A stretch of DNA of 37,052 nucleotides from NCBI GenBank assembly GCA_030606565.1, contig JAUWGE010000017.1:1-37052 (forward strand), read 5' to 3'. Source of the stretch: Candidatus Bipolaricaulota bacterium (lineage in GTDB: Bacteria > Bipolaricaulota > Bipolaricaulia > UBA7950 > UBA9294). Below are positions 11,004-37,052 of this stretch, one piece after another. The position numbers and the translations under genes are program-made. Position 1 is the first letter of the stretch. Each line of letters opens with the position of its first letter. The notes under the pieces were generated by a model that was not told the DNA's origin, did not search any database, and saw only the letters and a list, made by a program, of their open reading frames with translations.

Positions 11004-11954
11004 TCAACTGTTTTCAAGCAAGAATGGAGCTTGAACCTTCATCGCAGGAAGGAGCGATCGTGCCCGGGCAACATCGAGGCCCATCTGCTCGCGAAGGGTC
11101 TCAAGAGAGGGAAAGCTCCGATCACCGCGCAGCTTATGAAGCAGGTGAACCTCCATCGTCTTTCCATAGAGATTCTCATCCGGCAGGGAGAGGAGGTGGA
11201 CCTCACAGCGCATCGCACTCCCCTTCAGGGTAGGTCGTACCCCAAAGTAGAGGAGCCCTGGCTCCCTCTTCCTTAACCAGAAGGCGTGCACGAGGTAGAC
11301 CCCCCTCGCGGGGTGAAGGACGACTGGATCAAACGCCAGGTTGGCAGTGGGATAGCCGAGCCGCCGACCGAGACCGTCCCCCTCCACCACCTCGCCGACG
11401 AAGAGCGGTGGACGGCCAAGGAGGGCCCTCGCCTCGCCAACTTCCCCTGAGGCAACCAGTTCACGGATCCACGTACTGCTCACTGGAGCCTGATCGACGA
11501 CGACGGATGGGACCTCAACCACAAAGATCCCCTGATCCTTCCCCACGCGTCGTAACAGGGATACATCGCCCTCGCGGGCGCGGCCGAAGCGGAAGGAGTC
11601 TCCTACCACGACTACTCGAGCGGTGAGCTGCTCAAGGAGGATCTCACGGACAAATCGTTCCGCTTTAAGGTTTTTTACCTCCACAAAGTCAGCCTGCTCC
11701 ACCCGATCGACGTAACGCTTAAGGAGCTTGAGTTTCGCCGACTCTGGCAGGAGCAAACACGGCTTTGGCTGTTCCTTTAATGCCTGCCTGAAGGTACCCT
11801 GGCGCGGCGGGAAGGTGAAAGCGTAGACAACCCGCTCTAGCTGCTTCTCTGAAGCAATTGCACAAAGCCGCTTGAGGATCGCCTGGTGGCCCAAGTGAAC
11901 CCCGTCGAACGTCCCTACAGTAACGACGGCACCCTCTTTCCTCTTCTTCATCAT
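11004..11954 (-). CDS. ribF: Bifunctional riboflavin kinase / FAD synthetase
   Basis: Converts riboflavin to FMN and FMN to FAD. The N-terminal nucleotidyltransferase shows VTVGTFDGVHLGHQAILKRL (about 11-30) and the SSTWIRELVASGEVGEA loop near 155-175. The C-terminal kinase shows GRRLGYPTANL and GVYLVHAF. At 316 residues it is full length. It starts with tandem ATGs after TTAGGA. The gene is divergent from ruvB with about 100 bp between the start codons, and is first in the long - strand block down to 2.3 kb. Confidence 0.95.
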   Translation of the reverse strand: MMKKRKEGAVVTVGTFDGVHLGHQAILKRLCAIASEKQLERVVYAFTFPPRQGTFRQALKEQPKPCLLLPESAKLKLLKRYVDRVEQADFVEVKNLKAERFVREILLEQLTARVVVVGDSFRFGRAREGDVSLLRRVGKDQGIFVVEVPSVVVDQAPVSSTWIRELVASGEVGEARALLGRPPLFVGEVVEGDGLGRRLGYPTANLAFDPVVLHPARGVYLVHAFWLRKREPGLLYFGVRPTLKGSAMRCEVHLLSLPDENLYGKTMEVHLLHKLRGDRSFPSLETLREQMGLDVARARSLLPAMKVQAPFLLENS

Positions 11955-12054: not shown

Positions 12055-13056
12055 ATGCGAACTGAACGTATAAGTGGCCTTCCGTTGGAGGAGGATGTCG
12101 TATTCACCACCCTGCGCCCGGCCCGGCTGGACGAGTTCATCGGGCAGAATGAAATCAAAGAGAAGTTGCGTATCTATATCGCCGCTACGCAAAGAAGAAA
12201 CGAGCCACTCGACCACGTCATGCTGCACAGCCCCCCCGGATTGGGGAAGACAACCCTCGCCCGGATCATCGCCACAGAGATGGGGGTAAACGTCCGTGTG
12301 AGTTCTGGTCCGGCAATCGAAAAGGCAGGGGACCTCGCTGCCATCCTCACAAACTTGAAGCCACGTGACATCTTTTTCATCGACGAGATCCACCGCCTGC
12401 GGCGGAACGTCGAGGAGATCCTTTATCCAGCAATGGAGGATTACAAGATCGATATTATTCTCGGTGAAGGCCCGAACGCGCAGTCACTGCGCATCGATCT
12501 TCCCCCATTTACCCTGATCGGGGCCACTACCCGCGCCGGTCTCATCTCGGCCCCATTGCGCGACCGGTTCGAGGTATCGTTCCGCCTCAATTTCTACAGT
12601 CCGGAGGAACTCCGTGCGATCATCATCCGCGCTGGGAAGCTCCTCGGAATTGAGGTCACCCCAGAGGGAGCAGAGGAGCTCGCCAAACGGGCTCGTGGGA
12701 CCCCGCGGATCGCCAACCGCCTGCTGCGCCGAACGCGTGACTACGCGCAGGTGAAGGGAGAGGGAGAGGTCGATCTTAAGACAGCGAAACGATCGCTCCA
12801 GATGCTGGAGATTGATGAGGTCGGACTCGACCGGCTCGATCGTGCGGTCCTTGAGGCGATTGTCTCCAAGTTCAACGGCGGCCCCGTTGGACTGGAAACC
12901 CTAGCCGCCGCCCTCTCCGAGGAGAAGGACACCGTCTCCGACGTGGTGGAGCCTTATTTACTTAAGGAGGGATTCATCAAGCGAACTCCGCAGGGAAGGG
13001 TGGCAACCGAACGCGCCTACACCCACCTCGGCAAAGAGAGAACTCGCCTCATCTAG
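12055..13056 (+). CDS. ruvB: Holliday junction branch-migration ATPase RuvB
   Basis: Hexameric motor of RuvAB that drives Holliday junction migration. Walker [12 protein letters not shown] is at about 60-68 and Walker [11 protein letters not shown] at about 106-115. [18 protein letters not shown] carries sensor 1 and the arginine-finger region, and a C-terminal winged helix contains [18 protein letters not shown]. At 333 residues from the ATG it is normal. The probable leaderless start is set by the promoter. It overlaps by 4 bp at its end with the convergent CDP-alcohol phosphatidyltransferase gene. No ruvA or ruvC is in the window. Confidence 0.96.
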
Positions 13057-13568
13057 CGCTTGGCAAGAAGCGCCTTAGTATTCTCGATAAACTCCAAGAC
13101 GACCCCTTTGAAACGCCGCCAGTCGAATAGTGCCGCTAAACAGATCCAGACGACGAACCATATCGCTGCTCGTGGGGCGTTGAAGTAGGCAACAATGAGT
13201 GGAAGGGTGACTATGGGGAAGGCGAACGACATAGTGACCGACTTGGAGCGGAAGTAGGCGATAAAGACCGCAGCGACCGCCACGTAAATCGCTGCCGGAA
13301 CAAGCGGGATGAACCCGGCCATAACCAGATAGCAGAGCCCGGAGAATACCATCACCATATCAAACACGAACTCCCGCTCACCAATCCATGTCGCTCCCTT
13401 GTGATAGCGGCGGGCGAGCCGACCATCGAGAATGTCCGTCGTCCACCCAAGGATGATCAGCAGGATCACCGCCTCTAAGGCCTGCGGACCGACAAGACCG
13501 AGGAACGAGATCACCACAGCGATAATCCCCCGTGAACCAGTGAGCAAATCAGGGACCTTCTTCATCAC
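13053..13568 (-). CDS. CDP-alcohol phosphatidyltransferase family protein
   Basis: Integral membrane enzyme family (PgsA, PssA and relatives) that condenses CDP-diacylglycerol or a CDP-alcohol with an alcohol. About five hydrophobic helices are visible in 171 residues. The motif begins DILDGRLAR (about 45-53), matching DxxDGxxAR, but the second half [10 protein letters not shown] departs from Gx3Dx3D. If aligned at x8, Gly is Ile, the third Asp is Glu and only the last Asp is kept. Substrate is not assignable. It begins GTG-ATG after AAAAGG. A truncated copy lies at 24.0-24.3 kb with the same variant motif. The next genes (lipid kinase, gpsA) also act in phospholipid metabolism. Confidence 0.87.
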
Positions 13569-13583
13569 CTTTTCACCGTTACT

Positions 13584-13612
13584 ATTTTAGTGGAGCCTAG
13601 CAGGTAAGACAA
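13584..13612 (-). promoter_or_regulatory. Promoter for CDP-alcohol phosphatidyltransferase gene
   Basis: On the - strand TTGTCT (13607-13612), a 17-bp spacer and TAAAAT (13584-13589). The start codon follows about 15 bp downstream with AAAAGG between, so this gene has a short conventional leader. Confidence 0.5.
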
Positions 13613-23725: not shown

Positions 23726-24028
23726 ATGCTAGCTTCGCGAAACGCAAGACGGAGAGCGCGGTGGCCGTACAGGCAAGGAACACGAATATTGATCGGCCTT
23801 GGGATTATCCTGCTCTTCGGCCTATTTGTATTTGGGCAAGACGAGCAGGGCCTTGAGTTCGTCCACCTCATCATCGGGGAGCTCAGGGTGGAGTTTCACC
23901 AGCGGATGATCGACGAGGCAATCGTAGAGGGGGACTATATCGTTCGCCAGTACGACGCCCACACGGGAGAACTGGTGAAGGAGAACCGCCATTGGCGAGC
24001 CGACTTGCCGCCGGAGCAAGCGGGATGA
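23726..24028 (+). CDS. Small single-pass membrane protein (100 aa)
   Basis: Not recognised. A strong SD (AAAAAGGAGG) precedes the ATG at 23726. The protein has an Arg-rich start (MLASRNARRRARWPYRQG), one transmembrane helix (ILIGLGIILLFGLFVFG) and a charged tail with DEQGLEFVHLIIGELRVEF. Orientation by the positive-inside rule would put the tail outside. Its last seven codons and stop come from the antisense of the truncated CDP-alcohol phosphatidyltransferase copy, so the original C-terminus was probably replaced when that fragment arrived. Confidence 0.55.
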   Translation: MLASRNARRRARWPYRQGTRILIGLGIILLFGLFVFGQDEQGLEFVHLIIGELRVEFHQRMIDEAIVEGDYIVRQYDAHTGELVKENRHWRADLPPEQAG

Positions 24029-24281
24029 ACCCGGACATCACCAGGTAACAGAGCCCGGAGAAGACCATCACCATGTCGAAGACAAACTCCCGCTCCCCGA
24101 CCCACGTTACTTCCTTGTGGTAGCGACGGGCAAGTCGGCCGTCGAGGATGTCCGTTGTCCATCCAAGGATGATCAGCAGGATCACCGCTTCAAGTGCCCG
24201 TGGCCCGACAAGCCCGAGGGACGCGATCACCAAAGCGATGCCCCCCCGCGATGCGGTGAGCAGATCAGGAACCCTTTTCAT
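24008..24281 (-). pseudogene. Truncated copy of the CDP-alcohol phosphatidyltransferase gene
   Basis: Starts MKRVPDLLTASRGGIALVIA at an ATG behind GAGAGG and is closely similar to the first half of the 13.05-13.57 kb gene, including [13 protein letters not shown] and [20 protein letters not shown]. Similarity stops sharply after GFIPLAPAA (near 24008), where the + strand membrane-protein gene begins; the frame then runs on into its antisense. About 90 of 171 codons remain. It is a diverged duplicate, not a recent copy, judged by many third-position differences. Confidence 0.8.
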
Positions 24282-24345
24282 CCTCTCGTTCACTGTACTA
24301 ATTGTAATGTCACCGCGCCACGCAAGACAACTATGATGCTCAGGC

Positions 24346-26828: not shown

Positions 26829-26858
26829 ATCCTAGGTTGTCATGTCTGGCTCTGTCAA
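26829..26858 (-). promoter_or_regulatory. nfeD-floA promoter (leaderless type)
   Basis: TTGACA (26853-26858), an 18-bp spacer and TAGGAT (26829-26834) on the - strand, six bases before the nfeD ATG. It has the same boxes and spacing as the lipid-kinase promoter. Confidence 0.62.
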
Positions 26859-27108
26859 GTCCCCCAAGACATCGGGTAATGCAGCCACCACCTGTGTTCG
26901 CGCTGCCGGCCGGGATATTTATGGCCTCCTCGGGCCCAACGGCGCCGGGAAGACGACCACCATCCGCGTGCTCGCGGGACTCATCGCTCCCACTTCGGGC
27001 TATGCAGTGGTCGCAGGTATGCGCTTCGACCAGAAGGTGGAGCGACTCCATGAAGACATCGGCCTTCTTCCCGAGGATCCCGGCTTCTACGAGCACCTGG
27101 AGGACTGA
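26842..27108 (+). pseudogene. ABC transporter ATPase fragment
   Basis: About 65 codons of an ABC ATPase: Walker [21 protein letters not shown] and then [13 protein letters not shown] and [14 protein letters not shown], before a stop. The N-terminal strands are missing, as are the Q-loop, signature motif and Walker B. The ATG at 26842 lies inside the nfeD promoter and has no SD, so it is a relic. It marks a rearranged junction between the nfeD operon and the cassette array. Confidence 0.7.
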
Positions 27109-27205
27109 TCGACGGAAGGACAACCCGTGGTGTTCAAAAAAGCAGGTTTGTCGTCGTGCGTTGCGATCGTGGTACGCTCACCATAAGCAAGGGGCAGGCC
27201 TTGCA

Positions 27206-27269
27206 GATAAGGTGTGTGTCCCTCTAATTTTGGGAGATGGGAGATAAGGTATGTGTCCCTCGAATTTTT
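27206..27269. repeat. Two direct repeats (GATAAGGTRTGTGTCCCTC...)
   Basis: GATAAGGTGTGTGTCCCTCT (27206) and GATAAGGTATGTGTCCCTCG (27243) are 37 bp apart and both continue into AATTTT. A diverged third copy (TATGGTTTGCGTCCCTCGAA) lies at 28080-28104. The rest of 27109-27275 has no gene. Confidence 0.7.
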
Positions 27270-27275
27270 ATGGCC

Positions 27276-27324
27276 GCCGCTAATCAGCCGCGCCAGCGGC
27301 GTCGGGTGGAAGCCCTTGTTAGGC
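27276..27324 (-). other. attC-like site, distal end, degenerate
   Basis: On the - strand GCCTAAC (27318-27324) contains the TAA stop of the membrane-protein gene, a common cassette feature. CACCCGACGCCGC and GCGCGGCTGATTAGC then form a short imperfect stem. The right box is only GATTAGC. Either a short or a damaged attC. Confidence 0.5.
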
Positions 27325-27756
27325 GCTGCCGTTAGGGATTGCCCTCTTTCTTGGTCGCCACCAACACACCAGGAATAATATTCCAGGGGTGGTTATTATC
27401 ATCGACAGAAGATAAGGAACCGCTGAACGGGGGAAATCGTGAGTGATCGGACTATGAATTAGAAGCAACGAAAGCGCTGCCAGCTGGAAAACAATGGTAA
27501 TCGTTCCTCCCAATCGCTCCCAACGCCAGGCAATGCCCAATCCCAGGACACTCAGAAACATAAAGATCGGGGGTAAGGCTTCTATGGGGGGATAGTCCTC
27601 CACCGCATGCGGGTCTGCTACACCGGTTGTCACCCAGTTCCATGCATAACCGATAAGCATAAGTAGAGCGTAAACTATGATCGGAAAGCCCCAGATTCGG
27701 GCAATCCAGCGTATCCATTTCGTGACCCGATTACGACTGTCATTACCCTTCGTCAT
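27319..27756 (-). CDS. Cassette: four-helix membrane protein (145 aa)
   Basis: Not assigned a function. Four hydrophobic helices are visible: GFPIIVYALLMLIGYAWNWV, PPIFMFLSVLGLGIAW, TITIVFQLAALSLLLIH and YLLSMIITTPGILFLVCWW, with a basic N-terminus (RNRVTKWIRWIARI) and an Arg/Lys C-terminus. Similar small integral membrane proteins of unknown function (DUF-type) occur in genome islands. CAAGGAGGG precedes the ATG. Its stop codon lies within the attC box, and another attC is immediately upstream, so it is the most distal cassette. Confidence 0.82.
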   Translation of the reverse strand: MTKGNDSRNRVTKWIRWIARIWGFPIIVYALLMLIGYAWNWVTTGVADPHAVEDYPPIEALPPIFMFLSVLGLGIAWRWERLGGTITIVFQLAALSLLLIHSPITHDFPRSAVPYLLSMIITTPGILFLVCWWRPRKRAIPNGSA

Positions 27757-27784
27757 GATCCACCCTCCTTGCTTTTAACACGGT

Positions 27785-27866
27785 GCCCAACGGGGCTGCG
27801 AATAAGCTACGAGCGGAAGGCACGCTTGCGTGCCAGAACGCACGTCAGCTTCATCCACTGTCGGTC
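27785..27866 (-). other. attC site of the RHH/RelE cassette
   Basis: GTTGGGC on the - strand (27785-27791) is an intact right box. The left box is degenerate (GACCGAC). The arms GGATGAAGCTG and CAGCTTATTCG pair around a GGCACGC/GCGTGCC hairpin with an unpaired G. It is nearly the same as the sites at 32234 and 35310. Confidence 0.75.
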
Positions 27867-28118
27867 GGCGCGCAGCGCCGCCCATACAGTAATTATTCTG
27901 CAAGCCCGCAACATAATACCAGGAGCTCTATTTCATGCCAACTGCGAAGAGATGCTTCCGACAGACCGGGTTCGAAGGAAGGATGGCGACAAGGCGACCT
28001 CAGAGGTGAATCGAGGTGTGAAGACTTAATTTGGGCGCATGCTTTCTTAAGATGTTTTCGGAGTTGCAAGCCTCGGAAATATGGTTTGCGTCCCTCGAAT
28101 TCTCTGGATAGCGAGCGT
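27867..28118. other. Gene-free part of the RHH/RelE cassette
   Basis: About 250 bp between the attC and the RelE stop, with no gene. It holds a GGCGCGCAGCGCC hairpin directly after the attC and the third, diverged copy of the TGTCCCTCGAATT repeat (28080-28104). Confidence 0.45.
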
Positions 28119-28409
28119 TTAGGTTTTGATGTAGTTCTTCAAATCCCTGTAGAAGTTCTCGTGTCCTCCAATGGCGAGCAGATAGAGTCTCTTTTCGGGT
28201 TCATCAACAGTGTAGGCAAGGAGGTAGAGTTGGCCGAGGCAAGAGAACTTGTGGACGCGTACGCCCTGCAAGTCTCCGGCCTTCATCTCACCAAGGGTCG
28301 GGTCGCGGCAGAGCAGGTCTACCTGTACGTCGATTTGTTGCCGCAGTGGTTCGGGGAGCTTTTTCTTGATCCGGGCAAATTTGGTGTAGGCAACGGGCTC
28401 CAGCGCCAT
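28119..28409 (-). CDS. RelE/ParE-superfamily toxin
   Basis: Probable mRNA-cleaving or gyrase-targeting toxin of a type II toxin-antitoxin pair. 96 residues with the fold landmarks FARIKKKLPEPLRQQIDVQV (two helices), GDLQGVRVHKFSCLGQLYLL (central strands), LAYTVDEPEKRLYLLAIGGH and a C-terminal FYRDLKNYIK helix. The Arg and Lys of the central strands and the C-terminal Tyr/Lys are the usual active-site types. It starts 9 bp after the antitoxin stop, in antitoxin-toxin order. Confidence 0.85.
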   Translation of the reverse strand: MALEPVAYTKFARIKKKLPEPLRQQIDVQVDLLCRDPTLGEMKAGDLQGVRVHKFSCLGQLYLLAYTVDEPEKRLYLLAIGGHENFYRDLKNYIKT

Positions 28410-28418
28410 GGCGGAAAG

Positions 28419-28643
28419 CTACCCGCGAGGGTAAGGGAGAACATCCCCTTGTTCGATTCCGGCAAGCGCCTCGCGAATATCCGCTTGGAACTGAGGGTGG
28501 AGGGTATTGTACTGATCGACGTAATGTTCCACGGCCATCTTGACGACCGTGCTTAGGCTGCGTTTTTCCAGCCGCGCGATCTCCTCGAGGTGTCTCTTTA
28601 GTTGAGGGTTTACCTTTGTGGAGACTGACTTTGAGCTTGCCAT
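28419..28643 (-). CDS. CopG/RHH-type antitoxin
   Basis: 74 residues: a ribbon strand (SVSTKVNPQLKRHLEEIARL) then two helices (KRSLSTVVKMAVEHYV), the ribbon-helix-helix DNA-binding domain, and an acidic tail (DIREALAGIEQGD) that would bind the RelE-like toxin. GAGGAGG lies upstream at slightly long spacing. It has its own promoter with GTATAC inverted half-sites, which should be its autoregulatory operator. Confidence 0.85.
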   Translation of the reverse strand: MASSKSVSTKVNPQLKRHLEEIARLEKRSLSTVVKMAVEHYVDQYNTLHPQFQADIREALAGIEQGDVLPYPRG

Positions 28644-28682
28644 GCGTCATCCGCCTCCTCTTTCTTGCGTTCTCCAAACAGA

Positions 28683-28711
28683 AGTATAGCATCAAAGGTA
28701 TACGAAGTCAA
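28683..28711 (-). promoter_or_regulatory. Promoter of the RHH/RelE operon
   Basis: TTGACT (28706-28711), a 17-bp spacer and TATACT (28683-28688) on the - strand, about 40 bases before the antitoxin ATG. A promoter inside a cassette is typical for toxin-antitoxin cassettes. Confidence 0.72.
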
Positions 28712-28722
28712 CGAGGTATACC
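28697..28722. promoter_or_regulatory. Probable antitoxin operator
   Basis: Two copies of the palindrome GGTATAC(C) at 28697-28703 and 28715-28722 sit on either side of the -35 box, 18 bp apart. This spacing fits cooperative RHH dimer binding and repression of the operon. Confidence 0.55.
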
Positions 28723-28780
28723 AAGGAATTAATGTTGGGTTGCAAGGCCAGACCCTGCGTGACCGATCACTCGCGATTTC

Positions 28781-28907
28781 GCCTAACGGTTAGCATCACC
28801 CGCCGGGCGGTTGCGGGAAAGAGCCTCCACTACAAGGCACACTGAAAGCGCGTGGAACCGCCGATGTGCGCAACCGATAGCCCGGTCGGGTGCATGCATT
28901 GTTGGGC
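28781..28907 (-). other. attC site of the alpha/beta-hydrolase cassette (127 bp)
   Basis: GCCCAAC (28901-28907) and GTTAGGC (28781-28787) on the - strand. The 5' arm GCATGCACCCGACCGGGC pairs with GCCCGGCGGGTGATGC, leaving an unpaired G and an unpaired A six bases apart. The A is as in known attC top strands. The long variable loop resembles VCR-type sites in size. Confidence 0.9.
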
Positions 28908-28941
28908 GGCTTTTCAAGTGTGACTACCGCGTAGCAACGAC

Positions 28942-29841
28942 TCAGCGGGGAAGCCGTTGCTGCAATACCTCATCCAAAAATGCCTCTAGAACGGCGGTAT
29001 ACGTTTTGGGGAACAGCATGAACGTGTGATGTCCGCCCTCCTCAAAGATATGCGTTCTGGCCCTGGGATACCGTGCTTTCAGTTCTCCCACATGGTCGAT
29101 TGACGACTTGTCGCCCTTGGATGACAGAACTAATATCTCCCCAGGCCAGTGCTGTAGGGCTTCTGACCTGAACACAAAGCTGCGATGGGCTTCTACCCCT
29201 GCTTCCATGAAGCGTAGAAACATCTCCTTGTTGATGTCCAGACTCATCTCCCGAAGGTATGTGCCGCGAAATGCCAACCATTCGCTCGAAGGCGGAAATG
29301 CCCATCCACTTCTCCTTACTAGGCGTAGTATTCGCATCAAGATGGGGAAAGGGAGAATCTTGATCAACTTCAGTTGCTTCTGTAGCCTTGACGTATCTTG
29401 CGCGCCGACAACGCTACAGTGAGAGAATACCACATGCTCTACCTTCTGCGGGTATTCCTGAAGGAAAAACTGGGCGACTCCTGCGCCACCGGAGACCCCA
29501 ATGACCGTTGCTTTCTCTGCCTCTTTGGCGCCAAGGATTGCCGCATGAGCGCGACAGACCTCGTCCATGGCGAACGTTCCCTGCAATGCGTAATTGTCCA
29601 GAGTTATGATTCTATACTTCTTTTCGAAGGCAGTGATGGGGTAGAACCACATATCCGCTCTCATAAACGCACCGGGCATGAAAAGGAGAGTTTTGTCTCC
29701 CTGCCCGCAGGCAATGTAGCGCCAGCGAGCACCCCCGACCTCCAGTTCCTTGTAGGGATGGTTAGCGCGGAATTCCTGTAAGAGCCGCTTCTGTTCAACA
29801 GGAACTTGAGCATAGATTTCGTCGAACTGCAACACCGTCAT
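28942..29841 (-). CDS. Cassette: alpha/beta-fold hydrolase
   Basis: Serine hydrolase of unknown substrate. Nucleophile S117 lies in VIGVSGGAGVAQF, acid D244 in SSKGDKSS, His271 in FEEGGHHTFMLF; oxyanion-side MPGAFMRADMWF is near 55. 299 residues, no signal peptide, cytoplasmic. GGGGGTG precedes the ATG. The stop is 35 bp before an attC. It may be an esterase, lactonase or acyl-transfer enzyme; activity on antibiotics or signals is not indicated by the sequence. Confidence 0.85.
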   Translation of the reverse strand: MTVLQFDEIYAQVPVEQKRLLQEFRANHPYKELEVGGARWRYIACGQGDKTLLFMPGAFMRADMWFYPITAFEKKYRIITLDNYALQGTFAMDEVCRAHAAILGAKEAEKATVIGVSGGAGVAQFFLQEYPQKVEHVVFSHCSVVGAQDTSRLQKQLKLIKILPFPILMRILRLVRRSGWAFPPSSEWLAFRGTYLREMSLDINKEMFLRFMEAGVEAHRSFVFRSEALQHWPGEILVLSSKGDKSSIDHVGELKARYPRARTHIFEEGGHHTFMLFPKTYTAVLEAFLDEVLQQRLPR

Positions 29842-29885
29842 CTTTCACCCCCTACCTGTCAATAGAGATTCTGCCCCCATTCCGA

Positions 29886-29967
29886 CGCGCCGGACAGCAA
29901 GCGGATTGAAATCCGCGGCTCGATGGAGCGGCAGCGGAACACCGTCAGGTGGATGCGTTTGTTGGGC
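29886..29967 (-). other. attC half-site plus 44-bp repeat module
   Basis: GCCCAAC (29961-29967) lies inside the 3' end of the membrane-protein gene and is followed by GCATCCACCTGACGGTG, a good 5' arm with C and A at unpaired positions. No matching 3' arm follows. Instead a 44-bp module (29886-29929) with GCGGATT/AATCCGC begins, shared with 32322-32365. No clear right box. Confidence 0.5.
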
Positions 29968-30544
29968 CGATGGCACGCTTCCAGCTTTCCCATTCATCAG
30001 CCACTTCCTTTAGCGGGTCCAACGAGCGCTCATCGGGGTATACGATACGCCGGTGTTCGCGTGCGCCTGCTGCAAGCACCTGAAACTTCTGCATGTGGGC
30101 CGGTTGTTTGCGCTTCCACCGCTCCGCCGAGACCATAGGTTCCAGATACTGCCAACCCCTGACCAAAGGACGAGAGTAGAAGTCCATCACGAACTCGACG
30201 GGGGCAACACCATGCTTCACCATCACGCCCAGCATATCGTAAGACCTTGCCAGTCTGTCCAGGTTGTTCCTCTCAGAATCCGAGGCCTTCATGATATCGA
30301 AGTTGAGGTCCGCTGCGATTTTCTCCTCAAGGAGATGCCTTTGCTCGCGACACTGCTCCATTATGTCGAAGACGTGACGCAGCGCCTGCACACGCGAAGC
30401 ACGCTCGGCCTCGATGATGGATCTGCGAGACAATGCAAGGTTGCGGCGAAATTGCCGGACGGTGATGATCCAGTAAACAACTCCCAGCACGGCAACAAGC
30501 GCTAGGACCACTGTTGCGATATTGGCTCCATCCTGTAGTGTCAT
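29945..30544 (-). CDS. Cassette: DUF4760-like membrane-anchored protein
   Basis: 199 residues with one N-terminal membrane helix (TVVLALVAVLGVVYWII) and a long helical cytoplasmic domain (RRSIIEAERASRVQALRHVF). SYDMLGVMVKHGVAPVEFVM and DFYSRPLVRGWQYLEPMV look like the DUF4760 family; function unknown. The 3' end runs into the attC box. AAAGGAAAGG is the likely SD. Confidence 0.78.
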   Translation of the reverse strand: MTLQDGANIATVVLALVAVLGVVYWIITVRQFRRNLALSRRSIIEAERASRVQALRHVFDIMEQCREQRHLLEEKIAADLNFDIMKASDSERNNLDRLARSYDMLGVMVKHGVAPVEFVMDFYSRPLVRGWQYLEPMVSAERWKRKQPAHMQKFQVLAAGAREHRRIVYPDERSLDPLKEVADEWESWKRAIGPTNAST

Positions 30545-30568
30545 GTTGCTGCCTTTCCTTTGATGTCA

Positions 30569-30672
30569 GCCCAACGAGCCGCGGATTGAAATCCGCGGCT
30601 CGTTGGAGCGGCTATGGGGCTGGCAAAGGAGCGCAGCGGATTTGCCAGTCCAACTTCAGCCGCGGGTTAGCG
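30569..30672 (-). other. attC site with perfect 17-bp inverted repeat
   Basis: CGCTAAC (30666-30672), 2 bp after the HEPN-like gene's stop, and GTTGGGC (30569-30575) on the - strand. TGGCAAA/TTTGCCA and GTTGGA/TCCAAC stems form the centre, and CCGCGGCT/AGCCGCGG the outer arm. The right end has CCAACGAGCCGCGGATT repeated perfectly inverted (30571-30606), an unusual addition. Confidence 0.75.
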
Positions 30673-30674
30673 TT

Positions 30675-31502
30675 CTATTCCCTTTTCCTGCGCAATTCAC
30701 TGAATTCTTCATCAGTTATTTCACGGTCCTCGTATTGGAAATTGTCGTTAACAACAACTTGAGGCGTGAGAGCTTCAATTCGGTTCTTGGGTCCGACCAG
30801 GAGACAATTTGGCAGATACACTTTACGAATAAACGGTTTACTTTCCCAGCTCTTCTTAATGTAGATCTCGCCTGGGATGTCAGTAATGAACCATGGCTGA
30901 GGGCCGAAGGCACTGAACTGATTCCGGATTATCTCGCGTAAACACAGGATTGCATCCAATGCCAATTCTCTATCATTTCGATCGACTTCAGGACGAAAGT
31001 GAATTGCCTTATGACGCATGTCCTTTAGGTAACGGAACTGCTTGGCGACTTCAGGCAGCAGGATATCCCAAGATTCCAGAGTGTCAATTGGCACGTCCCA
31101 ATTATCGAATGAATCTTTTCGATAGATGTTCTTGTATTCGGGCGTGTGCCTATAATCGTCCCGAAGAATCAAAATCAGGTAATTCAGAATCCGTTCTCCC
31201 AAAGCGCATGCCGAAGTCAGGGCTGGATAATAGGCTCCCATGACGAAAGCAGTTCGGATTTGCTCGAAAAATCGATTATGGAAAGCGATAATCGATAGGG
31301 GCTTATCGCCCAAATCTATGAAGTTCTTCCTCTTCCCATCCTGAGATTGGGCACCATACATGCTTATCAAGGACTTCTCTACTGCAGCCCTGTTTTGAAG
31401 ATGCTGTTTTTTGATATCATCTTCCCATTCGTCACGGATCTTCTGCGTCAACATGTGAACGCGGGTATCAAAGTCGAAGGCAAGGACGCGGTATCGTTTC
31501 AT
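30675..31502 (-). CDS. Cassette: HEPN-like protein (275 aa)
   Basis: Not in a family I can name. The middle (residues 90-170) has a HEPN-type layout: a helix with SACALGERILNYLILIL and, about 55 residues on, FRYLKDMRHKAIHFR, in which R163 and H168 fit the RX4-6H RNase motif. The N-terminus (MKRYRVLAFDFDTRVHMLTQ) and the strand-rich C-terminus (VYLPNCLLVGPKN) are unassigned. If HEPN, it may be a ribonuclease in stress or phage defence. The stop abuts the attC. Confidence 0.75.
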   Translation of the reverse strand: MKRYRVLAFDFDTRVHMLTQKIRDEWEDDIKKQHLQNRAAVEKSLISMYGAQSQDGKRKNFIDLGDKPLSIIAFHNRFFEQIRTAFVMGAYYPALTSACALGERILNYLILILRDDYRHTPEYKNIYRKDSFDNWDVPIDTLESWDILLPEVAKQFRYLKDMRHKAIHFRPEVDRNDRELALDAILCLREIIRNQFSAFGPQPWFITDIPGEIYIKKSWESKPFIRKVYLPNCLLVGPKNRIEALTPQVVVNDNFQYEDREITDEEFSELRRKRE

Positions 31503-31515
31503 ATAGTATCTCTCA

Positions 31516-31577
31516 CACTAACGCCCTCGGCATCAGCTGCGGCGCGCAGCGCCGTCAGCTGCATGCCGTTGTTAGGA
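31516..31577 (-). other. attC site of the HigBA cassette (62 bp)
   Basis: TCCTAAC (31571-31577) and GTTAGTG (31516-31522) on the - strand. The 5' arm CGGCATGCAGCTGACGGC pairs with GCCGCAGCTGATGCCG, leaving unpaired G and A six bases apart. It is short and among the cleanest sites; the HigA stop is 14 bp upstream. Confidence 0.92.
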
Positions 31578-31591
31578 GGCCGTTTCAAACA

Positions 31592-31900
31592 CTAGTCGGT
31601 GGCACGCACAGGCCGAATGCGCCGGAGCTCGGCTGCCTCGGTCTGCTGAGCCCGAAAAAGGTCCCACCGAACCTGGAGATTCATCCAGAACGAGGGCGAG
31701 TTTCCAAAGACTCGGGCCAAGCGCAGCGCCGTGCTGGGGGTGATGCCGCGCCGCTTGTTGATCAGCTCGTTCACACGCTGATAGGGAACGTGGATACGAT
31801 CTGCCAGTTCCCGCTGCGAAATCTCCATCGGCTTGAGAAACTCCTCCAAAAGCATCTCGCCCGGGTGCGTCGGCTCTCGATGGGTCGGTACACGTACCAT
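31592..31900 (-). CDS. higA: HigA-family antitoxin (HTH, addiction module antidote)
   Basis: 102 residues from the ATG at 31900 (GGAGG at seven bases). HPGEMLLEEFLKPMEISQRE is the HigA/VapI-type start; an XRE helix-turn-helix follows (QRELADRIHVPYQRVNELIN), with RGITPSTALRLARVFGNSP and the terminal WMNLQVRWDLFRAQ. It binds HigB and represses the operon. It follows higB by 10 bp, in the usual toxin-antitoxin order of this family. Confidence 0.92.
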   Translation of the reverse strand: MVRVPTHREPTHPGEMLLEEFLKPMEISQRELADRIHVPYQRVNELINKRRGITPSTALRLARVFGNSPSFWMNLQVRWDLFRAQQTEAAELRRIRPVRATD

Positions 31901-31910
31901 TTCCCGCCTC

Positions 31911-32194
31911 CTAATGGTAGTCCACAATCTCTACGTCCGCAGGCCCCATTTCCGTCCAGCGAAAGCAGACTCGGTATCGGTCATTAATCCGAATGCTGAA
32001 TTGGTCCCGTCGACTTCCGGACAGCTGTTCCAAGCAGTTCCCCGGCGGGATTCGGAGTCCACCACCGAGTCCAGCTGATCGAGCTTGCGTCCCGCGATAC
32101 TCCAAAGATTCTGCGGACACGTTCTTCGCGCAACCTTGGTGCTGCGCCCGTTGAAGATGTCCTCGGTTGCCTGGGTTGCGAAGGACCGAATCAT
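31911..32194 (-). pseudogene. higB: HigB toxin gene with one frameshift
   Basis: Begins MIRSFATQATEDIFNGRSTK, followed by AGRKLDQLDSVVDS in one frame, and continues LRIPPGNCLEQLSG and then FSIRINDRYRVCFRWTEMGP in the next, ending EIVDYH. One base is missing near 32055 (GACTCCG where GACCTCCG is expected). Joined, it is a normal HigB of about 93 residues with the R..CFRW toxin core. Either the toxin is dead while the antitoxin survives, or it is an assembly error. Confidence 0.8.
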
Positions 32195-32200
32195 AAACAC

Positions 32201-32229
32201 ATAATAGCACGGCTAGCATGCTATTTCAA
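32201..32229 (-). promoter_or_regulatory. higBA promoter (leaderless type)
   Basis: TTGAAA (32224-32229), a 17-bp spacer and TATTAT (32201-32206) on the - strand; the HigB ATG at 32194 follows six bases later. The spacer contains GCATGCTAGC, part of a possible HigA operator. Confidence 0.68.
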
Positions 32230-32233
32230 GCCC

Positions 32234-32314
32234 TTCTAACGAGCTGCGGATAAGCTGCGAGCGGAAGGCACGCTTGCGTACCAGAACGCACGCCAGCTTC
32301 ATCCGTTGTTGGGA
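32234..32314 (-). other. attC unit B of the kinase cassette (81 bp)
   Basis: TCCCAAC (32308-32314) and GTTAGAA (32234-32240) on the - strand. Arms GGATGAAGCTGGCGTGC and GCAGCTTATCC pair with an unpaired G; central hairpin GGTACGC/GCGTGCC. Nearly the same as 27785-27866 and 35310-35391. Confidence 0.85.
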
Positions 32315-32321
32315 GGCGCTA

Positions 32322-32365
32322 CGCGCCGGACAGCAAGCGGATTGAAACCCGCGGCTCGATGGAGC
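32322..32365. repeat. 44-bp module, copy 2
   Basis: Differs at one base from 29886-29929; it contains CGGACAGCAAGCGG and GCGGCTCGATGGAGC. 30581-30612 shares about 31 of 32 bases with the right part of 29886-29932. It lies between two attC units. Confidence 0.75.
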
Positions 32366-32383
32366 AGGCGCGAAGCGATCGCT

Positions 32384-32509
32384 CCATCGTAGGCGTCAGC
32401 CGCGCCGAACCGCAACCCAGGACGCTGGACTGCTGCCAAACCATTGAAAATCAAAAACGATTGTTAAACGCGGCGCGTGTTCGGCGTCGGCTGCACGCCA
32501 TCGTTAGCC
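32384..32509 (-). other. attC unit A of the kinase cassette
   Basis: GGCTAAC (32503-32509) on the - strand. The 5' arm GGCGTGCAGCCGACGCCGAA (32481-32500 region) pairs with TTCGGCGCGGCTGACGCC (32392-32409), leaving unpaired G and A six bases apart. The right box is replaced by ACGATGG, so this unit may not recombine on its own. The region 32315-32605 has no gene. Confidence 0.72.
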
Positions 32510-32605
32510 CTGTTCAACTCTCTGAAGCCAGCCTTTTGTGTCAGTATTCATAAAACACCACGAGTTACACCCAACAGTTTACATTTTGATGGCGTAAATA
32601 GAGAG

Positions 32606-33553
32606 TTATATATACTTCTGAACAGCCTCGGTTAGCTTACCTAAATGGCTAGGGCCCTCAACTGTTACGGCCGCAAGGTACCCCCATACACGCCATAGAT
32701 CACGTCTTTCCCTAAATCCCAGATCAATGGGCAGTTCATCCTGATAGCCATCAAAAACATCATCCGACACTGTTTGGAAATAGTCGATAAATGCAAGATC
32801 CATTTCCGGATTTCCGTAGTAGACCGCTGGATCAATAACGACCGCTCCCATTTCGGTGCTGATGAAGTTGTTTTGTTGAGCGTCACCATGGAGGAGCGAG
32901 GGCACTATTTCAGGGCCACAAAGCTCGGGAAGGCGTGAAATTAGCTTTTCGACCTGCCGAATTACAACTGGAGGCATATTTCCGGAATCAATTGCCAGTT
33001 TCAAACCTGGCCACAGCCGACGTTCCGCATAGAATGTTGGCCAGTCACTCATCGGAGTGTTATCTTGGTAAAGAGGCCCAAAGTAACCATGTGTTTCTAA
33101 ACCGAACCGATCCCACCTGATCTTATGGATGCGGGCAAGCGTTTGTCCAATTTGTCGCCAGTGGTGAGGGGCTCTATCAACGGCTTTGACTGCCTCAAGG
33201 ACCAAGATGCTTCCACCTGTAACCGGAATAATACCGATTGGACTGGGCGTTAGGACGCCTGAACGTTCAGAGAGGAGTCGCAACCCTGTCAGTTCAATCT
33301 CAAACTGTTCAAATCCATTGGCTGCTTCACTGAATTTGGCAAATACGGAATAGGAACCGTTCGAAAGGATGGCGCCGTGATGACAGGCAAACTCTGTCAT
33401 ATCCCTAGCATCTTTTATTGTCCACTGGCGCCCTATGTGTTCAGAAACAATCTGTTCCACTGGGGTACGAAGTGGACTACTCGCTAATCGAATAGATGGG
33501 ATTCGATTTTGCGATCGATGGACTTTGCTCTTGAGCAACATTCTCGCACACAC
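32606..33553 (-). CDS. Cassette: fructosamine-kinase/APH-fold kinase
   Basis: Protein-kinase-like small-molecule kinase. The catalytic loop LLHGDAQQNNF (H222, D224, N229) and metal motif VVIDPAVYYGNPEMDLAFID (D241) are those of fructosamine-3-kinases. A Gly-rich/Lys strand is GSYSVFAKFSEAANGFEQFE with Lys73. 315 residues; GTG start at 33553 or ATG at 33541, neither with a clear SD. Possible roles are deglycation of proteins or sugar phosphorylation; antibiotic phosphorylation is not suggested by these motifs but cannot be excluded. Confidence 0.85.
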   Translation of the reverse strand: MCARMLLKSKVHRSQNRIPSIRLASSPLRTPVEQIVSEHIGRQWTIKDARDMTEFACHHGAILSNGSYSVFAKFSEAANGFEQFEIELTGLRLLSERSGVLTPSPIGIIPVTGGSILVLEAVKAVDRAPHHWRQIGQTLARIHKIRWDRFGLETHGYFGPLYQDNTPMSDWPTFYAERRLWPGLKLAIDSGNMPPVVIRQVEKLISRLPELCGPEIVPSLLHGDAQQNNFISTEMGAVVIDPAVYYGNPEMDLAFIDYFQTVSDDVFDGYQDELPIDLGFRERRDLWRVWGYLAAVTVEGPSHLGKLTEAVQKYI

Positions 33554-33630
33554 CTATTTATCTGTATTTGGCCAGCTTGAGTTGCATACCAACCTTCGTT
33601 ACGAAAACAAGCAATCCTGTCTATACGAGG

Positions 33631-33710
33631 GGCTAACGAGCCGCGGATCAGCGGTGGACGGAGCGCGAGTTTGCTCGCAACGGAGTCCGTCCGCTGGATC
33701 CGCTGATGGA
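33631..33710 (-). other. attC unit B of the lipoprotein cassette
   Basis: GTTAGCC on the - strand (33631-33637) is the right box. Arms GGATCCAGCGG and CCGCTGATCC pair, leaving an unpaired C, the base seen in canonical sites. The left box is degenerate (GTCCATCA). Confidence 0.65.
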
Positions 33711-33730
33711 CGGCGCTTCGCGCCCGCTTC

Positions 33731-33815
33731 ATCGACCAAGATCAGCCGCCGCTGCAAGCGGTCGGCTTGCTTGCCGATCTCCTTGTCGCAGTCTGTGCAG
33801 TGGTTGGTCACGTGA
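33731..33815 (-). other. Possible attC unit A of the lipoprotein cassette
   Basis: CAAGCAAGCCGACCGC pairs imperfectly with GCGGCGGCTGATCTTG around a small loop, with an unpaired A. A left box near 33810 (GACCAAC) is poor, and GTCGATGA stands at the right-box position, as in the other tandem sites. No gene lies in 33554-33858. Confidence 0.38.
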
Positions 33816-33858
33816 CCCCACGTATTGGTTCTATTCGTTGCGGCGCAGCACTTCCGCT

Positions 33859-34482
33859 CTACGGGCTTTCGTTGAGCACCGTTGAAGGCCAGGAGTCCAC
33901 ACCCTCATCGGGGGCACTCACCAGGTAGACGCGCCATCGGCTGTCTCTGTCCGTCACCATGCGAAAGACGACCTCGCCGCTCACCCCGTCCACATCGGCG
34001 ATCACATCCACAGCCTGCTCGCCGTCACGCGTCTCCGAGTCTTTGCTACGGAGAATATCTAGGACACCTCTCAAGTCGATCAACAGATCATCTTCCTTGG
34101 CCGCGTAAAGCATGATCTGGTCGAAGAAGTACCAGGAGTCCATTTGCGTATTGAACATCTCCCGAAAGTCCAAATCATCCATCAAGCCCTCATCTGCGTC
34201 TTCCCCGATCAAATGCCGCCAGCTGAATGTCTGGACGTTTTCCATCCGCAGCAGCCTCTGCGCCTCGACATCGAGCACCAGGTAGACGGTCATAAAGTCT
34301 TCCCGCTGAAAGGCCTTGGCGAAGGTCTGAACCGCGTCTTCGGGCGTCTCCAGGTTGAGCGATTCATAATAGGTTCGGGCGTCGTTTTCCTCACCTGATT
34401 CCAGCATCCCACCGGACTGGCAGGCCAGTGTCACCAGCAGCACTGCCAGTATGATCGTGATCAGCTGCGTGTGTTCTTTCAT
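33859..34482 (-). CDS. Cassette: lipoprotein, function unknown
   Basis: The frame opens at 34515; the ATG at 34482 (GGAGC upstream) starts a clear lipoprotein signal, MKEHTQLITIILAVLLVTLA then CQSGG, with lipobox LAC. The mature part (about 186 residues) is acidic and mixed alpha/beta: PEDAVQTFAKAFQREDFMTV resembles the start of NTF2-like or DUF4878-like domains, and VVFRMVTDRDSRWRVYLV is a strand pair at the end. No catalytic motif. It is exported and membrane-attached. Confidence 0.8.
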   Translation of the reverse strand: MKEHTQLITIILAVLLVTLACQSGGMLESGEENDARTYYESLNLETPEDAVQTFAKAFQREDFMTVYLVLDVEAQRLLRMENVQTFSWRHLIGEDADEGLMDDLDFREMFNTQMDSWYFFDQIMLYAAKEDDLLIDLRGVLDILRSKDSETRDGEQAVDVIADVDGVSGEVVFRMVTDRDSRWRVYLVSAPDEGVDSWPSTVLNESP

Positions 34483-34543
34483 ACGTAGCTCCTTCCTCGG
34501 TTGTGATGAATTCACCTACTGTTCGTACTGAGATGGTTTAGCC

Positions 34544-34669
34544 GCCCAACGAAATAATCAGCCGCCCGCCGGATTGGCATTCCAACATAATTTGATTATA
34601 GCCAAAATCTGCAAATTTCACGCCGCTTACCCTCCGCCGCAGGCGGGTCGGCTGCATTAAGGGTTAGGC
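34544..34669 (-). other. attC site of the methyltransferase-like cassette (126 bp)
   Basis: GCCTAAC (34663-34669) and GTTGGGC (34544-34550) on the - strand. The 5' arm AATGCAGCCGACCCGCC pairs with GGCGGGCGGCTGATT, leaving unpaired G and A six bases apart. The AT-rich loop contains TATAAT on the - strand. Along with 28781 and 31516 it is the best-formed site. Confidence 0.92.
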
Positions 34670-34703
34670 CGCCTTTTCCATTTTGCCCGTTGAAAAACCA
34701 TAA

Positions 34704-35264
34704 TCAAAAGAACAGGAAATATCTAGGCACACGTTTCATATACCTTCGATATGAATCACCATACCTCTCTAAGCAAGCACTCTCTTCTGCTAGAATTCTA
34801 GAGTGAAGAAATAACGAGGATATTATTTGTACGAATAGCGCAAGCCAAGAGCCTATGGCAATACAAATCCCAATAAAGGTTACAAAAAACATGAGTTGCT
34901 GTGGATGACGTGATATTCTGTAGAGGCCACTGGTAATTGGCTGATCAAGGAGCGCACTTTTAAAATTGAAAAGCGCAACAACGAATCCAGCCGACCCAAG
35001 GACATACAAAATAATTCCGGGGATGAAAACAGCAGAGCTGATTTTTAATGGGGTAAAGATTATCAGACCAAAATAGACAAACGCAAAGAAACTTCCTATG
35101 TAAAGAATGACTTTATGCCTTTTACTCCGACCAGACTTATCGTAAAGCCTCTCTACTACATCCTTCGGAAAGACTATGAGCAAAATAATGTATATCAAAT
35201 ACAGTAAGCATATAAGAATCCAGCCGTTTAGCCACCCTAGTTCAAGTGTAGGAATCAGTCCCAT
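34704..35264 (-). CDS. Cassette: isoprenylcysteine-methyltransferase-like membrane protein
   Basis: 186 residues with about five membrane helices. The C-terminal signature GLYRISRHPQQL and LAEESACLERYGDSYRRYMK followed by VPRYF is that of the ICMT/PEMT/NnrU group of S-adenosylmethionine-dependent membrane methyltransferases. The substrate (lipid, thiol or other) is unknown. It is AT-rich, unlike the neighbouring cassettes, a sign of separate origin. A weak SD lies before the ATG. Confidence 0.85.
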   Translation of the reverse strand: MGLIPTLELGWLNGWILICLLYLIYIILLIVFPKDVVERLYDKSGRSKRHKVILYIGSFFAFVYFGLIIFTPLKISSAVFIPGIILYVLGSAGFVVALFNFKSALLDQPITSGLYRISRHPQQLMFFVTFIGICIAIGSWLALFVQIISSLFLHSRILAEESACLERYGDSYRRYMKRVPRYFLFF

Positions 35265-35309
35265 TTCTCATTCCTTCCCGCTGAATTTGTGTTGCTATGC
35301 ATTATGGCG

Positions 35310-35391
35310 GCCCAACGGGGCTGCGGATAAGCTGCGAGCGGAAGGCACGCTTGCGTGCCAGAACGCACGCCAGCTTCATCCGTTGTCGGGA
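35310..35391 (-). other. attC unit B of the proximal cassette (82 bp)
   Basis: GTTGGGC (35310-35316) is the right box on the - strand; the left box is TCCCGAC (35385-35391), one base off. Arms GGATGAAGCTGGCGTGC and CGCAGCTTATCC, hairpin GGCACGC/GCGTGCC. Closest relatives are 27785-27866 and 32234-32314. Confidence 0.82.
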
Positions 35392-35408
35392 GGCGCTTCG
35401 CGCCCGCT

Positions 35409-35468
35409 CCATCGATCGGCTTCAGTTGCGCCGGTTTCTTGGCGTCAACTGGAAGCCGCTGGTTAGCT
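35409..35468 (-). other. attC unit A of the proximal cassette
   Basis: AGCTAAC (35462-35468) overlaps the stop of the PD-(D/E)XK-like gene. CGGCTTCCAGTTGACGCC pairs with GGCGCAACTGAAGCCG, leaving unpaired C and A six bases apart, matching the canonical pattern. The right box is replaced by ATCGATGG. It is separated from unit B by a GGGCGCGAAGCGCC hairpin. Confidence 0.75.
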
Positions 35469-36842
35469 GACGTCCGGGTCGGGCGGGCTTTGTATCGGGA
35501 TACTTGAAGATTCATTTTCTGGTACCTGTTCTATTTCCTTTGGTAACTTGGGGGCACGAGGCACATATGGAACTAAACCCTCTACCACCTTTCGGTAAAA
35601 ACGTTCGAGATTGACTGAAATCCCCTCAAGTGCTTTTTCGCTGGAACGGCCCCTCTGAAGAGATGTTGTCCAATTGATCAAAAACTTTTTAGGGAAGGCA
35701 TTCTTAGGAATAGAAGCTTTATTAGTATCGCGCAATAATGAGGAGCCATCTTCAACAAGATCGCGTAAACTTCCCTGTGATAGCATTCCGCGCTGATCCC
35801 ACTGGACCGTTACAACGAGATCGCCTGGAACATTTGAGAGACTTCGGAGTTGTCGCAATAGCCAGTTTACCCGTGTTGCCTGACGTCCGTCAGTTGGCGC
35901 ATCGAGGACAACCCGATATCTGACGGTCTTTGCTAGAAGAAAGACATCTATCCAAATGTCTCCTACTGCATCAGGAATTTTCAGAATTCCCGATAGTTGT
36001 CCACTTTTTATAGCGGAGGAATGGATCCGCTTTATTCGGCCATCCGGATCGTGTCTGTCACTTCTGGAAATTTTCGGCTGAACTTCTACCCCAAGCTTTG
36101 CACGCAGTCGTAGCGCCGCTTTCTTAAGGAAACCATCCCAGTGCCTTACGACGTCTTCTAAGTATGATGATGCTGCGTGGAGATCTCCCGTTCGGGCAGA
36201 TTTCAATACATCGTGCCAGTGTTTTCCTAGATTTGGTTTCGCAATGATTTGTGAGCCGTCATCATCAACGTAACGAATCCATTCGTCCAGCATCCACTTC
36301 TGATCCGAGTCCTGGATAGCCTTTTTCCGGCAAAGCATTTGAGCCTCGCTAAAAAGGCGTTCCCAAGAAACATGGAACACGGGCACGCTTCGAAGTCGGC
36401 GGCCATCAACTCGGAGGGGCGGAAGTCCATTCAACTGAGCAGGCTGGTTGCTAATAGTGATCAAGGCATCGAACTTTTCGGCGATTGATAGCAAATGGTA
36501 AATGTCGAACTGGTCTTGATCTAAAGGGTTGTTCCCGACCTTAACCTCCAGAAGGGCCTTCCACTCTGTTTTGCCCCGAACTACACGAATAATTCCATCT
36601 GGGCGTCGTTTGACGGGGCCTTTTCCCTTTTCGCCCTCAAGCTCAAATTCGACCTCGGTATAACAGGTCAACTTCCCTGCGGGACCTCCTACCATTCGCA
36701 CGAGAGCGCGTCCGAATTCAGATACTGCCCTCACCATTGCCAGCAAAGATGCGGTGGCTCGCAGCTCCGCCTCCCTTACAGACGAGATGTGACTTGAAGG
36801 AAAAAGCCTGACCTCATGTTGTTTCTTTTTCTCGAAATCCAA
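35463..36842 (-). CDS. Cassette: PD-(D/E)XK-nuclease-like protein (459 aa)
   Basis: First cassette after the candidate promoter. Residues 78-120 read KRRPDGIIRVVRG, KTEWKALLEVKVGNNPLDQD and FDIYHLL. This fits the PD-(D/E)XK core (D82, E99, K101) with a following Q (109/111), as in restriction-type nucleases; an N-terminal helix supplies E24/E26. The remaining 300 residues are unrecognised, with WISFL-free mixed alpha/beta and a basic region. TTG start at 36842 behind AAGGAGG. A defence or stress nuclease is the most likely role; the catalytic assignment is by motif only. Confidence 0.72.
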   Translation of the reverse strand: MDFEKKKQHEVRLFPSSHISSVREAELRATASLLAMVRAVSEFGRALVRMVGGPAGKLTCYTEVEFELEGEKGKGPVKRRPDGIIRVVRGKTEWKALLEVKVGNNPLDQDQFDIYHLLSIAEKFDALITISNQPAQLNGLPPLRVDGRRLRSVPVFHVSWERLFSEAQMLCRKKAIQDSDQKWMLDEWIRYVDDDGSQIIAKPNLGKHWHDVLKSARTGDLHAASSYLEDVVRHWDGFLKKAALRLRAKLGVEVQPKISRSDRHDPDGRIKRIHSSAIKSGQLSGILKIPDAVGDIWIDVFLLAKTVRYRVVLDAPTDGRQATRVNWLLRQLRSLSNVPGDLVVTVQWDQRGMLSQGSLRDLVEDGSSLLRDTNKASIPKNAFPKKFLINWTTSLQRGRSSEKALEGISVNLERFYRKVVEGLVPYVPRAPKLPKEIEQVPENESSSIPIQSPPDPDVS

Positions 36843-36914
36843 GGCATTACCTCCTTATCGTGACCTACCATGCGCAACTTTCACTGCGTATCTTTGGATT
36901 ACTTATCATAACCT

Positions 36915-36921
36915 AGCTAAC
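36915..36921 (-). other. Possible attI recombination box
   Basis: GTTAGCT on the - strand fits GTTRRRY and lies between the promoter at 36947-36975 and the first cassette gene. No attC arms precede it, as expected for attI. Placement is the main evidence; a single 7-bp box is weak. Confidence 0.4.
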
Positions 36922-36946
36922 AATGATTATCGTGCAACCCTGCAAT

Positions 36947-36975
36947 ATAATATATCCACAAGTAGCTAATGTCAA
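36947..36975 (-). promoter_or_regulatory. Candidate cassette promoter (Pc-like)
   Basis: TTGACA (36970-36975), a 17-bp spacer and TATTAT (36947-36952) on the - strand, near-consensus and directed into the array. It lies 105 bases before the first cassette gene's start. The remaining bases to 37052 show nothing else I can identify. Confidence 0.65.
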
Positions 36976-37052
36976 CTCTAGCCGCCAGGAAACCTCTTGA
37001 ATAGCCCGCAGATCACACCAGCATGCGATCTCCCCGACGACGCAATGATACA

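Follow-up and report, generated by a model that had tools for sequence, protein, structure and literature searches.

Integrons are usually pictured as one integrase combined with one docking site. The stretch of DNA analysed here (the window) is an entire contig of 37,052 bases (C23) from a Candidatus Bipolaricaulota genome (G000; assembly of 1.81 Mb, 91% complete), and towards its right end it carries ten units (12 open reading frames), on the minus strand throughout (27319-36842), which very probably form a real integron gene-cassette array at a fixed chromosomal site, now without an integrase beside it and with an attI-like site and a predicted promoter (Pc) retained. The array resembles the sedentary chromosomal integrons of the Vibrio/Xanthomonas type in its fixed chromosomal position, its toxin-antitoxin cassettes, its mostly unknown genes and its recurring, similar attC copies. 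It differs from these in having ten cassettes, no resident or intact integrase gene (intI) and heterogeneous, partly decayed attC sites, and in that many small loci take the place of one large array. By the usual classes it falls among the clusters of attC sites lacking integrases (CALINs; PMC9024848); the missing intI, with the incompleteness of the assembly as a caveat, keeps it out of the complete integrons. Unlike a CALIN, however, it still starts with a Pc-attI module, of which similar copies are scattered through the genome. Integrons of archaeal metagenome-assembled genomes (MAGs) are, in the parts of the report consulted, likewise mostly CALINs in fragmented MAGs with a canonical attC fold, whereas the present array belongs to a bacterial family and those parts hold no mention of a conserved multi-copy attI (PMC9668308).

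The unusual feature is the conserved Pc-attI module at the leading edge, recurring in many copies across the genome. The family has many such headless loci, that is, promoter-attI docking sites retained at many chromosomal places where the integrase gene next to them is missing or survives as a remnant, and the docked cassettes differ between sister species. Two questions can accordingly be put directly to the test: whether a single integrase is able to supply many loci in trans, and what lets Pc-attI persist longer than intI. The known cassettes are also extended by toxin-antitoxin pairs, a fructosamine kinase and, at a sister locus, a streptomycin adenylyltransferase from a lineage that is plausibly uncultured, all relatives being fragmented, MAG-like assemblies. 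A limited literature search found no publication on many dispersed attI sites with a conserved Pc, nor any on integrons in Bipolaricaulota or on multiple attI sites.

attC sites of the array

The original prediction, made from the letters of the window, was of a gene-cassette array with an attC-like site after each gene, and its interpretation is partly supported by what follows. A purpose-written attC scanner (signature of 3 bp, 1 extra base, 6 bp, 1 extra base and 4 bp) detected, on the array's minus strand, five perfect hairpins (13/13), each with a pair of extrahelical bases at a distance of six nucleotides (28896-28794, 31565-31531, 32497-32394, 34658-34556 and 35455-35420). Hairpins of this score had a mean of 0.025 and a maximum of one in 200 dinucleotide shuffles, and the scanner found none in the remainder of the contig. 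Four of the five are the sites in which the double unpaired bases had been predicted (28781, 31516, 34544 and the arm at 35409), the fifth being that at 32394-32497. When the bottom strands were folded as DNA, four of the five sites surpassed all 200 shuffles; the exception is 34544 (z=-0.78), with its long loop as the probable cause.

A covariance model (R1) was built from 36 aligned attC sites, taken from class 1 integrons and from the surroundings of intI in named genomes and including no sequence of the window, and was run unfiltered on the window. Covariation is present in the training alignment, with 92% of its cells paired and with 187 double-changed cells compared with 63 when shuffled, figures that are biased towards the structure because the training sites were chosen by the scanner itself. 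All seven best matches in the window fall on minus-strand sites of the array (E 1.4e-8 to 0.2), lie within 6.7 kb and include five at E<0.01, while nothing in the rest of the window scored better than E=2. Sites already predicted lead this list (31516, 28781, 34544 and 35407, in that order), as a covariance check had been expected to show, and the objection that scores would be no better than those of shuffled sequence fails outright.

An intact attC does not, however, stand at every junction. The sites are fully canonical in three cases, 28781..28907 (41.1 bits, E 2e-8; 13/13), which follows the same gene as in the sister species, 31516..31577 (41.7 bits, E 1.4e-8; 13/13) and 34544..34669, with both R boxes (33.3 bits, E 2.4e-6; 13/13), and partial in the others. 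The sites at 35407..35468 (21.7 bits; 13/13) and 32382..32509 (19.8 bits; 13/13) have a perfect core with the double extrahelical bases, lack the R' box, which in the latter is replaced by a palindromic repeat, and are each fused to a second site of the D1 type. This D1 family, 95 nt long, has near-identical copies at 27785, 32233, 33630 and 35310. Its members comprise the sites at 35310..35404 (R' GTTGGGC, R'' degenerate as CCCGACA), 32234..32314 (14.6 bits) and 27785..27879 (R' GTTGGGC), and a weak, D1-related site lies at 33640..33700 (14.9 bits, E 0.17). Behind the DUF4760 gene only the R'' box and 5' arm of a site remain (29885..29970; unrecognised by R1), a hairpin repeat having replaced the 3' half, and the site at 30565-30700 was not recognised as attC. 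The array ends in a truncated distal attC (27273..27324; 10.3 bits, E 2.9).

Such repeats could also be read as the REP-like (repetitive extragenic palindromic) or MITE-like (miniature inverted-repeat transposable element) intergenic sequences of an ordinary strain-variable genomic island. Other palindromic repeats (GGAGCGG...CCGCTCC) and the near-identical 95-nt copies at several junctions would suit this explanation, as would an IS3-type transposase pair in the sister species' copy of the locus. It is nevertheless barely credible, as the sites fit a model derived from integrons of unrelated genomes, their AAC/GTT boxes stand at the known spacing, and gene exchanges fall on G|TT.

The palindromic repeat GGAGCGG.CGCGAAGCG.CCGCTCC, which occurs in place of R' or of the attI GTT in the window (32358-32388, 33711-33735 and 35391-35414) and near L140 position 6727, could represent a hairpin unit that entered at the crossover. 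In two cassettes common to the species the homology ends directly after the R'' box (CTAACA) and not after R' (window 31570 against L136 around 8558; L139 5694 against L136 7850), the remaining attC being different.

Cassette exchange between sister species

The gene-cassette reading is supported by comparison with a sister species of the same genus (G033), whose contig C99 covers this chromosomal locus and has part of the cassettes in common, the others being exchanged. The 8% contamination of this genome is of little weight here because the flanks of C99 match the window. The distal flank, with an NfeD gene and a truncated ABC fragment, is 95% identical and starts near 27229. Within the array, the ParDE and hydrolase cassettes (96%) and the HigBA cassette (94%) are common to both, and an arginine-deiminase/DDAH-type gene in G033 takes the place of the DUF4760 and 275-amino-acid cassettes. 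The homologous locus thus keeps the sites and swaps the genes, and the objection that these could be ordinary conserved neighbours fails.

At the leading edge, window 36920-37052 aligns to 13394-13537 of the sister contig with 83% identity over 144 nt, and the homology ends at ATTG|T, after which the sequences are unrelated; the crossover G|TT lies between 36921 (G) and 36920 (TT) in the window. Past this edge G033 continues with a GntR gene (12919-13305) and ABC transporter genes. An attI-like site, with an exact breakpoint between species, appears to stand at the leading edge of the array.

Similar breakpoints were found at other loci. A cassette gene of the streptomycin-adenylyltransferase family (L136:6857-7840; Pfam E 5.5e-83) follows attI on contig C49 of G000 and attC on C99 of G033, and the homology between the two DNAs begins exactly at G|TTAGCGTCAC. 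At the uvrC locus attI and its flanks are common to three species and the cassettes differ. Cassettes are seen to be exchanged at G|TT in species comparisons at three loci. The start of homology at G|TT and the cassette differences at the uvrC locus have the marks of insertions that an integrase would have made after the species had separated.

The putative Pc-attI module and the integrase

The leading module (36921..36975, minus strand; 33.3 bits, E 2.3e-9; promoter 11/12) reads TTGACA-N17-TATTAT, then TTGCA.n.TAATCATTG|TT, with a predicted -35 box at 36975-36970, a 17-nt spacer, a -10 box at 36952-36947 and an attI-like core ending in TAATCATTG; its short form is TTGACA-N17-TATTAT...TTGCANANTAATCATTG|TT. 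A second module lies within the array (27887..27941, minus strand; 33.3 bits, E 2.4e-9), its crossover mutated to ACTG|TATG. The module of the leading edge, including the predicted TTGACA-17-TATTAT promoter, is conserved at dispersed loci, where it often precedes a single cassette. A sequence-only model of the core from -10 to the G, GTT excluded (R2), gave 12 copies in G000, 18 in G033, seven in G034 and one in G032 (E up to 0.01), some of which (e.g. on C52, C61 and C51 of G000) were absent from its training; matches in other genera of the family are mostly weaker. In 24 aligned copies the conservation is confined to the -35, the -10, the core and TTRG, and drops to background from +4 on and upstream of -35. 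Against viral contigs the attI core gave 17 isolated exact matches.

The delta-attI2 consensus AATAAAATG|TTRRRY, also written AATAAAATGTTRRRY (PMC12901181), is similar to the module core, AATAATCATTG|TTRG. Like the attG insertions and delta-attI of mobile integrons (core AATAA...TG|TTRRRY), cassettes are here found at sites beyond one attI (PMC12901181). In contrast to those, the present sites have a common conserved promoter and core, and therefore look like many copies of attI and not like divergent genomic targets. An earlier assignment of the single-cassette loci to attG-type insertions was dropped once the shared module had emerged.

It is unlikely that the 55-bp module is instead a dispersed promoter repeat, or the end of some other mobile element, that precedes cassettes by chance. 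Among 45 copies examined TT follows in 30 and is absent in 15 (some with ATGG or TATG), which would agree with such a repeat, as would the lack of a detected attC within 3 kb in 17 of them, in part due to contig ends (the other 28 have one), and the dissimilarity of the module to the attI adjoining the intact intI of the genus mates G032 and G034. An attI is nonetheless favoured by the exact break of both conservation and locus homology at the crossover, by the likeness to delta-attI2 noted above, and by an IntI N-terminal remnant placed divergently about 100 nt from the module in G016. A short frame MKLLDQVQQVCRAKHY, divergent from the module of the uvrC locus (L143:8960-9060, L154:1228-1330), is IntI N-terminus-like, at a length too short for significance (E 0.07-0.5).

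As to the integrase itself, IntI was counted only when over the curated cut-off, because generic tyrosine-recombinase models match in every control genome. No IntI over this cut-off was found in G000, in the window contig or elsewhere, or in G033; each of the genus mates G032 and G034 carries one (400 and 483 bits) next to attC. Two of the four genus genomes are 78-89% complete. Contig C11 of G000 retains a C-terminal intI remnant (L039:10596-10814; 89 amino acids, 55% identical to the G034 IntI), downstream of which cassettes with attC (11730-11861 and near 12460) lie in the same direction. Contig C35 of G033 retains the first 60 codons of an intI (L152:5197-5376; 85% identical to the G032 IntI), after which the gene is broken; attC sites lie on its other side, as in G032. 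The intact genes and the remnants together suggest that integrases came and went within the genus. In a tblastn search, the sequence preceding 43 modules yielded four weak IntI matches and a downstream control set two, and most modules are thus without a recognisable intI relic.

A complete sedentary chromosomal integron, with an intact intI just to the right of the window as originally predicted, is quite improbable. The contig does stop 77 bases past the module in a MAG that is 91% complete, and two genus mates possess an intact intI, but the homologous edge in G033 runs into the GntR gene and ABC operon in place of intI, and neither genome has an IntI over the cut-off. The favoured reading of an array without an adjacent integrase has its own weak points: the same contig end, because of which G033 has to stand in for G000 in showing no intI next to the array, its dependence on MAGs 90-91% complete, and the fact that only three of about ten junctions are fully canonical, several being fused, truncated or without R'.

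In the mechanism proposed, a sigma-70-type Pc and an attI-like site would head the array at its right edge, with the ten cassettes read away from them. An integron integrase would join the bottom strand of a cassette's attC, in its folded form, to the G|TT of attI or of the attC before it. Pc may transcribe the first cassettes, and the distal part is probably kept stable by the toxin-antitoxin cassettes. The integrase may have been lost, perhaps recently, or may act from elsewhere. More tentatively, and doubtfully so at present, the integron could be a distributed one, in which not one intI-attI platform but at least a dozen Pc-attI landing pads on the chromosome would each hold one or a few cassettes and be served in trans by an integrase with no need to lie next to any of them, cassettes moving between loci and being expressed from each pad.

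Cassette genes and neighbouring sequence

Pfam and NCBIfam assign families to seven of the ten units, which, as predicted, all lie on one strand and include two toxin-antitoxin pairs; the roles suggested by these families are putative. Counted from the leading edge, the first cassette gene encodes a protein of 459 amino acids without a family match (35463..36842). It is followed by a PEMT/isoprenylcysteine-methyltransferase-like protein (34704..35264), a 218-amino-acid protein with a lipoprotein-like N-terminus and no family (33859..34515), and a fructosamine-kinase family protein (32606..33553; E 1.7e-50). The fifth cassette is the HigB/HigA pair (31592..32219), whose 94% identity with G033 is at the nucleotide level. 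The sixth and seventh encode a 275-amino-acid protein without a family (30675..31502) and the DUF4760 protein (29945..30544), and the eighth an alpha/beta hydrolase (28942..29841) that is 99% identical in G033. The ninth is the pair of ParE toxin (28119-28409) and RHH antitoxin (28419-28643), together 28119..28643, and the tenth a DUF7670 protein (27319..27756). An Rfam scan yielded no credible RNA family and defence-system models nothing convincing, a ZorA-like match of the antitoxin (16 bits) being dismissed as chance.

To the left of the array lies a housekeeping region with genes on mixed strands. Between the array and the NfeD gene stands an ABC-transporter ATPase gene in truncated form (26842-27108), which is degenerate in G033 too. 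A short repeat, AGATAAGGTRTGTGTCCCTCKAATTTT, occurs in three copies at the distal end of the array (27205-27268 and 28077-28103), and similar sequence is found near modules elsewhere. A CDP-alcohol phosphatidyltransferase gene is present in two copies (13291-13587 and 24007-24303) with 81% nucleotide identity, the C-terminal end of the second copy having diverged.

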